From the NCBI RefSeq assembly GCF_029211125.1, contig NZ_JARGEN010000034.1, forward strand, positions 62,001 through 126,000: 64,000 bases of DNA, in the 5' to 3' direction. Positions within the stretch are counted from its first letter, which is position 1. The number at the start of each line of letters is the position of its first letter. The translations under genes were made by a program, and so were the position numbers. Shown piece by piece: positions 2,280 to 47,465 of this stretch. Below the pieces are notes generated by a model that worked only from the letters and a program-made list of their open reading frames with translations, did not search any database and was not told where the DNA came from. Source of the DNA: Curvibacter soli. Lineage in GTDB: Bacteria; Pseudomonadota; Gammaproteobacteria; Burkholderiales; Burkholderiaceae_C.

Positions 2280-2354
2280 ATATACTCCCCCCTCCACCTC
2301 ATCTCCAGCGCAGTAAATTAGCCGACTTATATTATATACTCCCAGGGAGTATAT
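2280..2354. repeat. Palindromic element E, copy 1 (ppnP-murB convergent gap)
   Basis: A half-site ATATACTCCC at 2280-2289 is followed 54 bp later by a perfect inverted repeat at 2334-2354: arms ATATACTCCC and GGGAGTATAT around a central A. The second copy (45826-45899) has the same architecture and partly similar spacer sequence, and it too lies between convergent genes. Function unknown; options include a bidirectional transcription end, a regulator site, or a small RNA promoter, since the minus strand beside the palindrome reads TATAAT. Confidence 0.75.
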
Positions 2355-2378: not shown

Positions 2379-3515
2379 CTACACCACCACCGGCTCGGGT
2401 TCGAGCAGGATGCCGAAGCGCTCGTACACGCTGGTCTGGATGGCGCGCGCCAGCGTCATCACCTCGCCACCGCTCACGCTGTCGGCGCCGCTGCCGCGGT
2501 TGACCAGCACCAGCGCCTGCCGCTCATGCACGCCCGCCTTGCCTACGGATTTGCCCTTCCAGCCGCAGGCGTCGATGAGCCAGCCGGCGGCCAGCTTGAC
2601 GCTGCCGTCGGGCATGGGGTAGTGCACGATCTTCGGCTCGCGCTCGATGATGTCGGCGCACTGCTCGGGCGTGACGCTGGGGTTCTTGAAGAAGCTGCCC
2701 GCGTTGCCCACGACCGCCGGGTCGGGCAGCTTGGCGCGGCGAATGGCGCAGACCCAGTCGAATATCTGCTGCGCACCGGGGTGGGCGATGCCCGTCTGCG
2801 CGCAGCGGCGCGCCAGGTCCAGGTAGCCCAGCTCGGGCCGCCAGGGCCTGGGCAGGCGCAGGCGCACGCGCGTGATGAGCGCGCGCCCTGCCAACCCCAT
2901 GTTGCGCGGCAGCATGGGCGCTCCATCCCCCATGTTGCGCGGCAGCATGGGCGCTCCATCCCCCATGTTGCGCGGCAGGGCGCCGCCGGCCTGCGCCTCG
3001 GGCGCGTGCTTGAATACCGAATCGCGGTAGCCAAAGGCGCATTGCGCCGCGTCGAGCGTGAAGGAGCGCCCGGTCAGCAGGTCCACCGCGTCCAGCGACT
3101 CGAAGCGGTCCTGCAGCTCCACGCCGTAGGCACCGATGTTCTGCACCGGCGCGGCACCCGCCGTGCCGGGGATCAGCGCCAGGTTCTCCAGGCCCGGCAA
3201 ACCGTGCGCGACGGTCCAGCGCACCACCTCGTGCCAGGCCTCGCCCGCGCCAGCCTCCACGATGACCGCGTGCGGCGTCTCGTCCACCACGCGCAGGCCG
3301 CGGATCTCCACCTTCAGCACCAGCGCCCGCAGGTCGCCCGTGAGGACGATGTTGCTGCCCCCGCCCAGCACGAAGCGGGGCTCGCCACGCCAGCGCGGGT
3401 CGTCCACGATCGCGCGCACATCATCCTCGGCGGCGATGTGCGCCAGGGACTGCGCGCGCGCCACGATGCCGAAGGTGTTGTAGGGCTGGAGCGGAACATT
3501 TTTCTCGACTAACAT
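2379..3515 (-). CDS. murB: UDP-N-acetylenolpyruvoylglucosamine reductase
   Basis: MurB reduces UDP-GlcNAc-enolpyruvate to UDP-MurNAc with FAD and NADPH, the second committed step of peptidoglycan precursor synthesis. Start [16 protein letters not shown] is typical; an alternative ATG three codons upstream (3524) cannot be excluded. Visible blocks: [14 protein letters not shown] (FAD site), [44 protein letters not shown] (catalytic Ser) and the C-terminal flavin domain. The odd point is an in-frame 33-bp tandem repeat encoding [11 protein letters not shown] units just after FGYRDSVFK. Divergent from yajQ, 43 bp between starts. Confidence 0.95.
2895..2978 (-). repeat. 33-bp tandem repeat inside murB
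   Basis: Two full and one partial 33-bp units begin at 2895, 2928 and 2961. Each holds a near-palindrome (CCATGTTGC, GCG, GCAGCATGG) and is in frame, adding 11-residue [11 protein letters not shown]-type repeats to MurB. The copies look identical where they overlap, which suggests recent duplication. Confidence 0.9.
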
Positions 3516-28133: not shown

Positions 28134-28226
28134 TGGCGGAAACGGAGGGATTCGAACCCTCGATGAGGCTCTACACCCCATACTCCCTTAGCAGGGGAGC
28201 ACCTTCGGCCACTCGGTCACGTTTCC
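28134..28226 (-). tRNA. tRNA-Ser (anticodon GCT)
   Basis: A 93-nt class II tRNA with CCA encoded. Acceptor GGAAACG pairs with CGTTTCC, the anticodon loop reads CTGCTAA (GCT, serine AGC/AGU codons), a long variable arm (GTATGGGGTGTAGAGCCTC) follows, and the T-loop is GGTTCGAATCC. It lies 37 bp behind the lysC stop on the same strand. Confidence 0.96.
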
Positions 28227-45558: not shown

Positions 45559-45807
45559 ATGCCCCTGCCCCCCTTCCGCGGCCAACGCCCGCAGAGCACC
45601 AGCCGCAAGGCTGACAACGAACTGCTGTTCAAGGGCCTGGCCTGCGCCCTGATCGGCGCGGTCGTGCTGCTGGCGCCCTATCTTGCCCGCGCCGACAGCG
45701 TGCGCGGCCTCATGCAGCAGGCGTACCTGGTCGGCTGGTTCGCGCTGGTGCTGGGCGGCGCCTTCCTGGTGCGCTACGCGCTGCTGCGGTGGCGCAGGAA
45801 GCGCTGA
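45559..45807 (+). CDS. Small hypothetical membrane protein
   Basis: An 82-residue protein with two predicted membrane helices (LACALIGAVVLLAPYLA and YLVGWFALVLGGAFLVRYAL) and a basic C-terminus WRRKR. Start MPLPPFRGQRPQSTSRKA is the only ATG before the first helix. Not recognised as a named family. It converges on gshA with element E copy 2 between. Confidence 0.62.
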   Translation: MPLPPFRGQRPQSTSRKADNELLFKGLACALIGAVVLLAPYLARADSVRGLMQQAYLVGWFALVLGGAFLVRYALLRWRRKR

Positions 45808-45825: not shown

Positions 45826-45899
45826 ATATACTCCCCCTACCACCTTCCATCTACCGCAATTATAAAGCCAACTTTAACATCATACTCCCAGGGAGTATG
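45826..45899. repeat. Palindromic element E, copy 2 (convergent gap before gshA 3' end)
   Basis: Half-site ATATACTCCC at 45826-45835 and, 55 bp after its first base, a perfect 19-bp palindrome CATACTCCC-A-GGGAGTATG at 45881-45899. Spacer partly matches copy 1 (CACCT, ATCT, AAGCC, ACTT). The minus-strand spacer holds TATAAT. Confidence 0.75.
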
Positions 45900-45917: not shown

Positions 45918-47465
45918 TCACAGGGCTGGGGCGCTGCTCGGAATGTGCAGCCGCATGGGTGAAACGTACTGCGCGCGGTAGACCTCGAAGGGCATGGTGT
46001 CGGCGGCCTCGATGGCCTGCTGGGCGGCCACCGATTCCCGCGCTTCGCGCGCGAAGCGCTCTTCCAGCGCGGGTGCGAACGGCAGCGCCAGCAGCTCGCG
46101 CTGGGCCTGCAGCGAACGCACGCGGGTGAAGGGGATGAACGCATCGCCATGGTCCTGCCGCATGGCCGCCAGCACGCGCGCCGAGGGCGCCGCATGCGGG
46201 TCGCGCAGCACGGCCCGGGCCGCCTGCACGGCGTCGCGGTGGCGGCTGCCGCCAAAGGCGGCGTCCAGCGCCTCGGCCACGGGCTCGCAGCCGCGCAGCA
46301 CCTCGGCGCCCCAGGCGTCGAGCGGCACCTGCTGGCCGCCGCGCTCCAGCAGCAGGCCGGGCTCGCGCCCGCGCGCCGCCGTGTGGTGCTGGTTGCGCTT
46401 CAACTCGTCGATCTCCTGCGGCGTGTCGGGCGGGCTGTCGGCCAGCAGGCAGTGCAGCAGGAACACGTCGAGGAAGTGCATGGTCTGCGCGCCGATGCCC
46501 AGCGGCTCGAACGGGTCCAGGTCCATGCAACGCACCTCCACGTATTCCACGCCGCGCTCGCGCAGCGCGTGCAGCGGGCGCTCGCCGGGGAAGATGACAC
46601 GCTTGGGGCGGATGGTGCCGTAGAACTCGTTCTCGATCTGCAGCAGCGAGGGGCTCAACTGGTTGTACTCGCCGCCCAGGTTGCGGATGCCGATGGCCTC
46701 GTAGTCGGGCCAGGGCCGCGTGATGGCGTCGTGCAGCGAGGCGGCGTAGCCCTCCAGGCTGTTGTAGCTCACCGCCAGCGACGCCTGCGCGTCGCTCTGG
46801 TAGCCCAGCCGGCCCATGCGCAGCGAGGTGCCGTGCGGCATGCCCATCGTGCTGGCGCCCATCGCCTGCAAATCGTGCGGACGCCCGGCCACGAAGCTGG
46901 AGCACACGGCGGGCGATGCGCCGAACAGGTACAGCAGCAAAAAGGCGTGGCGGCGGAAGTTGCGTATCAGCGCAAAATATTCCTCGCTGGAGAGGCCCGG
47001 CAGCGACCAGTTGTAGTGGATGCCCGAAATCGTCTGCATGCGCCGCCCGTAGCGGTGGCCCAGGCCCATGCGGTAGACGCTCTTGGCGCGGCCCACGTTG
47101 GAGCCGCCGTAGCGGCCCAGGGGGATCGTCTCGTCGGTGGGCAGGCCGCAGGGCATGCTCGACACCCACAGCATCTCGTCGCCCGCGTCGCGCAGCACGC
47201 GGTAGGTGAACTGGTGGATCTCGCGCAGCTCCTGCAGGCAGTCGTCCACGCTGGCGTGCACGCCGGTGACGAATTCGAGCTGCGACTCGCTGAAATCGGT
47301 GGTGATGTGCGGGTGCGTGAGCGCCGAGCCCAGCGCCGCCGGGTGCGGCGTGAGCGCCAGGCTGCCGCCGGGCAGCGCGCGCAGGCTCTCCTTCTCGACG
47401 CCGCGGCGCATGCCTTGCAGGCGCGCGGTACCGAGTCCCTCCAGCCCTTGCGTCAGGTTCGTCAT
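45918..47465 (-). CDS. gshA: Glutamate-cysteine ligase
   Basis: A 515-residue enzyme joining glutamate and cysteine, the first step to glutathione, of the proteobacterial (type 1) group. Blocks: RRGVEKESLR (N-terminal ATP/glutamate site), DFSESQLEFVTG, MPCGLPTDETIPLGRYG, QTISGIHYNWSL and QIENEFYGTIRPKR. Start MTNLTQGLEGLG; a much longer frame upstream lacks homology. Fits the presence of a KefC-type antiporter, which glutathione regulates. Divergent from cobQ. Confidence 0.95.
   Translation of the reverse strand: MTNLTQGLEGLGTARLQGMRRGVEKESLRALPGGSLALTPHPAALGSALTHPHITTDFSESQLEFVTGVHASVDDCLQELREIHQFTYRVLRDAGDEMLWVSSMPCGLPTDETIPLGRYGGSNVGRAKSVYRMGLGHRYGRRMQTISGIHYNWSLPGLSSEEYFALIRNFRRHAFLLLYLFGASPAVCSSFVAGRPHDLQAMGASTMGMPHGTSLRMGRLGYQSDAQASLAVSYNSLEGYAASLHDAITRPWPDYEAIGIRNLGGEYNQLSPSLLQIENEFYGTIRPKRVIFPGERPLHALRERGVEYVEVRCMDLDPFEPLGIGAQTMHFLDVFLLHCLLADSPPDTPQEIDELKRNQHHTAARGREPGLLLERGGQQVPLDAWGAEVLRGCEPVAEALDAAFGGSRHRDAVQAARAVLRDPHAAPSARVLAAMRQDHGDAFIPFTRVRSLQAQRELLALPFAPALEERFAREARESVAAQQAIEAADTMPFEVYRAQYVSPMRLHIPSSAPAL

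Follow-up and report, generated by a model that had tools for sequence, protein, structure and literature searches.

A dispersed two-site DNA element with fixed spacing in Curvibacter soli and some of its relatives

Two copies between converging genes

The window considered here, a stretch of 64,000 nucleotides of the Curvibacter soli genome, contains two copies of a composite element, each located where two genes converge. The first lies between a ppnP-like gene and murB, the second between a small open reading frame and gshA. Their parts and neighbours are the following.

1915-2235, + strand: ppnP-like gene (PF06865; gene call and Pfam), ending 46 bp ahead of the word of copy 1
2282-2289, + strand: half-site word ATACTCCC of copy 1 (the form ATATACTCCC of the preliminary description starts at 2280)
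2305-2324, + strand: core CCAGCGCAGTAAATTAGCCG of copy 1, aligned to the family core (alignment and profile)
2336-2352, no strand: 17-bp palindrome ATACTCCCAGGGAGTAT of copy 1, within a perfect 21-bp dyad spanning 2334-2354
2379-3515, − strand: murB (gene and family call), ending 26 bp past the palindrome of copy 1
45559-45807, + strand: small open reading frame of 82 aa without family match, ending 20 bp ahead of the word of copy 2
45828-45835, + strand: half-site word ATACTCCC of copy 2 (word search)
45851-45869, + strand: core CTACCGCAATTATAAAGCC of copy 2, aligned to the family core (alignment and profile)
45882-45898, no strand: 17-bp palindrome ATACTCCCAGGGAGTAT of copy 2, within a perfect 19-bp dyad spanning 45881-45899
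45918-47465, − strand: gshA, glutamate-cysteine ligase, ending 19 bp past the palindrome of copy 2

The distance from word to word is 54 bp in both copies, and the half-site and palindrome that a preliminary description had placed at 2280-2354 and 45826-45899, at a fixed distance from one another, are both present. That description also proposed the identity of the neighbours. The convergent arrangement stands at both copies and MurB and GshA are confirmed, while the PpnP-like protein belongs to PF06865 but falls below the NCBIfam cut-off, and the small gene, said to encode a membrane protein, matches no family. A minus-strand TATAAT, noticed in or next to the spacer of both copies, turned out not to be general: it lies wholly inside the spacer in 1 of 40 copies, by reading the one at 45826, and in the copy at 2280 it overlaps the palindrome. 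The word ATACTCCC is found seven times in the window, with 0.32 occurrences expected from shuffled sequence, and six of the seven are inside the two elements. The remaining one, at 28180-28187, stands alone outside both.

A family of copies and its distribution

The proposal that constant spacing is the sign of a single unit was borne out when the genome and its relatives were searched for half-site and palindrome: the genome holds some 60 copies (59 elements counted, two of them in the window), and the spacing is constant in relatives as well. The count of 59 is made of 54 exact word pairs and 5 longer model matches, retained from 115 rows once opposite-strand palindrome matches and short low scores had been dropped. 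Selected by their palindrome, at no more than two mismatches, 40 copies were recovered genome-wide, with none for the reversed pattern used as a control. All 40 have the half-site word 53-55 bp upstream (27 at 53 bp, 12 at 54 and 1 at 55), exact in 39 of them and with one mismatch in the last. When the spacing was left open between 41 and 71 bp, 54 exact pairs were obtained in this genome and 28 in a genome of the same family, G016, all of them at 53-55 bp, and 64 in Undibacterium aquatile (G424), distributed between 61 (2), 62 (48), 63 (12) and 64 bp (2). Genomes G423, G425 and G426 yielded 61, 34 and 33 word pairs within the same range, of which 4 pairs, from G426, were listed individually; the reversed controls gave zero in all six genomes.

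The pairs are direct repeats, that is, two C-tract words (ATACTCCC) facing the same way, both in the direct-pair search and when the half-sites flanking palindromes are considered. Between word and palindrome lies a diverged core around ACCGCA-NN-AAAA-AG-GCG, conserved and AT-rich, and the mean column identity is 64% in a 96-column alignment of the 40 copies. In 45 of the 59 copies the word adjacent to the core forms part of a full dyad of 16-17 bp, and in the other 14 the second arm of the palindrome is absent (both counts by eye). Elements without a second arm, at G000:C28:172831-174716, C89:35891 and C10:30113, adjoin mutually related genes, and two of them flank a single gene. The C-termini encoded by these genes, judged by eye, resemble IPTL-CTERM sorting signals.

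Gene contexts were derived from a retrained home-made gene caller, with 884 adjacent gene pairs in the stretches around the copies as background. In this genome 38 of the 59 copies are in convergent gaps, 18 in co-directional and 3 in divergent ones, against a background of 133 convergent (15%) and 132 divergent pairs. The tendency is similar in G016, with 12 convergent copies and 1 divergent among 19 fetched of the 26 model matches. In Undibacterium, 21 of 60 copies are convergent and 6 divergent. The convergent gaps of the preliminary description reflect a strong preference and not a rule. Orientation with respect to gene strand shows no clear bias: the counts are 6 ++ against 12 -- in this genome and 18 ++ against 15 -- in Undibacterium. 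No neighbour gene common to all three lineages was found.

The element is narrowly distributed. A model of the sequence alone, at an E value of 0.01, matched 3 of 60 relatives, namely this genome, G016 (26 matches) and G015 (2). The word-pair pattern was found in 6 of 399 genomes of the family (54 in this genome, 28 in G016 and 1-2 in four others; reversed control in 1 genome), and the palindrome in 6 of 399 genomes of the order (35 here, 16-24 in three Undibacterium and single copies in two; reversed control in 1). Within the genus Undibacterium it occurs in 12 of 43 genomes, as one copy in eight of them; at least seven palindromes are found only in aquatile, rivi, griseum and oligocarboniphilum, species that NCBI now assigns to Cognatundibacterium. 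Copy 1 had no match in plasmids. Viral contigs contain at least 120 word-pair stretches, and so short a pattern is estimated to be frequent there by chance. Among the matches listed, palindromes of Chloroflexi and Pseudacidovorax precede copper and frmR-like genes (by eye), and we have taken them as unrelated operators; those of Chloroflexi, often placed directly before apparent starts of copper or heavy-metal genes (by eye), are probably the operator of a metal-sensing repressor.

Helical geometry and conservation in Undibacterium

In the four Undibacterium species 60 of 66 palindromes were fetched, 6 of the 7 from G425 being left out. The half-site, for which one mismatch was allowed, accompanies all 60, being exact in 56 and one mismatch off in 4; lack of it was no ground for discarding a palindrome. 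It is in direct orientation at 61-63 bp in 38 copies and inverted at 54-55 bp in 18 or at 65 bp in 4. These forms amount to one geometry, in which the two words face the same way and either the first or the second is completed to a palindrome, the core pointing to the completed word (profiles). In U. aquatile the first word is the completed one in 37 of 64 pairs, and the commonest form of these palindromes, ATACTCCCCCCAGTAT (16 of the 37), has a stem of only 5 bp. If the half-site represents one half of a hidden 17-bp dimer site, the distances between centres are 53-55, 61-64 or 74 bp. At 10.5 bp per turn this makes 5.0-5.2 turns in this genome, and 5.8-6.1 and 7.0 in Undibacterium: from lineage to lineage the spacing changes in steps of roughly one helical turn. 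The argument stands on three spacing classes, and that of seven turns is made of 4 copies in 2 orthologue pairs. Such steps suggest that the DNA between the words may be looped.

Orthologous loci were compared in 24 reciprocal pairs established by flanking similarity, 15 between rivi and aquatile and 9 against griseum (5 griseum loci); the comparison covers pairs with both palindromes intact, decayed copies falling outside it. The type of half-site agrees in 24 of 24 pairs and the spacing in 23 of 24. Between rivi and aquatile, gapped alignments gave 118/120 identities for the half-site, 723/786 for the spacer and 760/927 and 794/932 for the flanks (82-85%). Against U. griseum the half-site retains 69/72, while the spacer is down to 287/509 (56%) and the flanks to 293/606 (48%) and 288/613 (47%), so that the contrast between word and spacer is smaller for rivi and aquatile than against griseum. 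Unrelated copies of the same type give 55% for the spacer and 46% for the flanks; in the griseum comparison, then, only the words stand above what such copies share. The arms of the palindrome carry no evidence of conservation here, because the search had selected them. We read the comparison as selection acting on the words and on their distance, and in these related bacteria the element seems to be maintained by selection.

A candidate protein-bound element and its alternatives

How can such an arrangement be accounted for? We see an even chance that we are dealing with a two-site DNA element, dispersed and vertically kept, comparable to BIME or RIB, to which a putative protein binds in helical phase. 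Among the forms initially suggested, a regulator-like site with a distant half-site is the one that fits best. The protein would bind the two same-facing words and loop the DNA between them; less certainly, the complex could then form a local boundary at the 3′ ends of genes, acting as a supercoil sink or as an obstacle to RNA polymerase between convergent genes. This boundary role is modelled on the BIME/RIB elements of enterobacteria. Passages on RIBs place them at the 3′ ends of transcription units and name IHF, gyrase and Rho-dependent termination (PMC2817692). As far as those passages go, the likeness is in the short dispersed intergenic DNA, the two recognition units around a middle (protein-bound in BIME-1/RIB) and the location at 3′ ends, which the gene contexts of the 59 copies here share; the differences are that our two words share one orientation and keep a fixed helical distance, that there is no REP of the GTAG type and that copies number about 59. 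The neisserial dRS3, ATTCCC(N8)GGGAAT, with some 700 copies often in arrays (PMC3898611), is likewise an intergenic repeat (dRS3/NIME) of another betaproteobacterium with a C/G-armed palindrome, but it is far more numerous, and the passages on dRS3 mention no fixed half-site spacing. No description of our element was found in the open-access literature, most subscription papers lying outside that scope; within the same limits the two-word, helically spaced plan also appears undescribed, the general kind, a dispersed intergenic repeat at 3′ ends such as BIME/RIB or REP, being known.

The element could instead be non-autonomous and transposable, of the REP/REPIN kind, copied by a REP-associated tyrosine transposase (RAYT), with words and core serving as transposase recognition and no function for the host. 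This is possible, if doubtful. A match to Y1 transposases is present in 11 of 11 family genomes searched; with the RAYT model the protein of this genome scores 69.9 and that of G016 67.6 bits, below the cut-off of 80. What speaks for a RAYT is the single RAYT-like gene of G016: an element-like pair flanks it on either side, the spacing is exactly 53 bp in both pairs, and the mismatches to the ATACYCC words number 1 and 0. No such pair occurs outside known copies in 1.02 Mb of background (963,602 bp from this genome, 58,819 bp from G016). The RAYT-like gene lies at C56, 21144-21434, with tatC on one side and a dps-like gene on the other; several relatives have their RAYT ahead of a gltB-like gene instead (names by eye). 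A like plan built on another word, with 48-49 bp separating TGTCCCC from TGACCCC 3′ of the gene, is also found at 5 of 13 other parsed RAYT loci, and the copies of the element are dispersed, intergenic and built on a common, diverged core.

Against this, the element is absent from 15 other RAYT loci scanned, including that of this genome and those of four Undibacterium carriers. Next to the RAYT of this genome, 3′ of it, stand TGTCCC and TGACCCC, and next to those of Undibacterium TGACCC words (by eye), in both cases without the element. Nor are the words of this genome's RAYT dispersed: the pattern has 6 matches in 1,027,602 bp, 5 of which are one tandem repeat, and the reversed control has 7. 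A tandem run of TGTCCCC units is seen at G000:C38:89300-109299. As a general partner of the element the RAYT was given up for this genome and for Undibacterium, and it was retained for G016. Further, REPINs consist of two inverted REPs, as reported in passages of one source (PMC8049555), while our words are direct and the consensus folds into the palindrome only; and the Undibacterium orthologues keep words and spacing while their spacers have become as different as those of unrelated copies, something neutral decay would not do. Word and RAYT thus coincide in G016, and elsewhere the link is absent or lost. The like plan at other RAYT loci, together with the flanks in G016, makes the plan of two same-facing C-tract words look RAYT-related, and the element family may descend from RAYT-associated elements.

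A more specific version of the protein-bound reading can be put forward, that of a dedicated boundary element: a candidate protein would bridge same-facing words over 5, 6 or 7 turns and raise a two-way barrier to polymerase or supercoils, a RAYT-type repeat having been put to use by the host and selected copy by copy. We hold this to be rather unlikely. As regards a boundary, terminator-like sites are no rarer in gaps that contain the element.

A bidirectional terminator, or a structured RNA at 3′ ends with the palindrome as terminator hairpin, is suggested by the preference for convergent gaps, many of them tight, and by the A-rich sequence before and T-rich sequence after the palindrome in Undibacterium (by eye). 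Yet a scan found neither promoter-like nor terminator-like sites at either copy in the window, where intrinsic terminators (GC stem, then U-run) numbered 0. In convergent gaps of 20-700 bp a home-made scan found terminator-like sites at the same rate with the element (12 of 72 gene ends) and without it (24 of 136; shuffled sequences gave 7% and 6%). The consensus fold of the 40 copies is the palindrome only, 6 pairs, without two-sided changes, and the covariation hoped for was not seen; column correlations are strongest between neighbours, distant ones being weaker with apparently little excess of pairing. Some single copies do fold well. Compared with shuffles, six strands gave z values of -2.75, -4.16, -1.27, -1.34, -1.49 and -2.45, of which three clearly exceed the shuffles (-2.5 to -4.2), copy 1 not being among them. 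In some copies, too, matching flanks lengthen the stem. The mean extension of the dyad is 0.95 here against 0.41 for re-paired flanks, and 2.25 against 1.04 in 40 Undibacterium representatives (0/5000 in each case), with extension stems of at least 4 in 4 of 40 copies here and 12 of the 40 representatives. Both the extended dyads and the good folds speak against a reading in terms of DNA alone; they could stem from hairpins formed by a minority of the copies or from palindromes repaired by template switching.

The short stem of ATACTCCCCCCAGTAT in U. aquatile and the absence of a second arm in 16 of 19 G016 copies (loose rule) further make a terminator quite improbable, and an RNA hairpin has no need of helical spacing to a second word. 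The small-RNA locus also envisaged at the outset finds little support: apart from the three strands that fold well, there is no promoter-like site at either copy, no two-sided base-pair change and no strand preference, and the one Rfam match in the region of copy 1 does not touch the element and falls well short of its gathering score.

Sites bound by SlmA or Noc provide a comparison for markers of nucleoid occlusion or of chromosomal domains. An organising site of this type would agree with the tens of palindromic, sequence-specific copies that occupy intergenic positions on many contigs and are vertically kept; it is nevertheless very unlikely, as copies show no replication polarity on these draft contigs (32/59 co-oriented with GC skew, 28/59 with third positions) and the convergent preference would be left unexplained.

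The least credible alternative, which we regard as most improbable, is the regulon of a CsoR/RcnR/FrmR-family repressor, with the words as tandem type-1 operators. According to passages of two papers, RcnR binds type-1 sites of the form TACT-G6-N-AGTA, in tandem and on a single helix face (PMC5146963, PMC3902906), and the form TACT-G/C tract-AGTA, with a tract of (C/G)6-7, is that of the palindrome consensus and of the 16 ATACTCCCCCCAGTAT copies of U. aquatile; the same palindrome stands directly before frmR-like and copper genes elsewhere (by eye, among the matches listed), and a frmR-like gene of this family in G306 is preceded by two ATACTCCC words at a distance of 56 bp, which enclose GCGCTT/AAGCGC arms. 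Those are promoter operators, however, while our element avoids divergent gaps (3/59), and beyond one CsoR-like gene this genome offers no match to an RcnR/FrmR-type repressor; since that sole PF02583 gene has a different upstream dyad, ATACCCTATAGGGTAT, the family is an unlikely reader of the element, and three PF02583 genes occur in G696, an Undibacterium that lacks the palindrome.

We return, then, to a two-site element, real and functional-looking, to which a putative protein would bind. It has long been asked whether the short intergenic repeats of bacteria are parasites or serve as working parts. In the present case orthologous copies keep two words and their distance while the intervening DNA has come to differ as much as between unrelated copies, so that a host function and looping could both be tested directly with 75 bp of DNA. 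The RAYT of G016, finally, would offer a route both to the protein and to an understanding of how such a family of elements begins.
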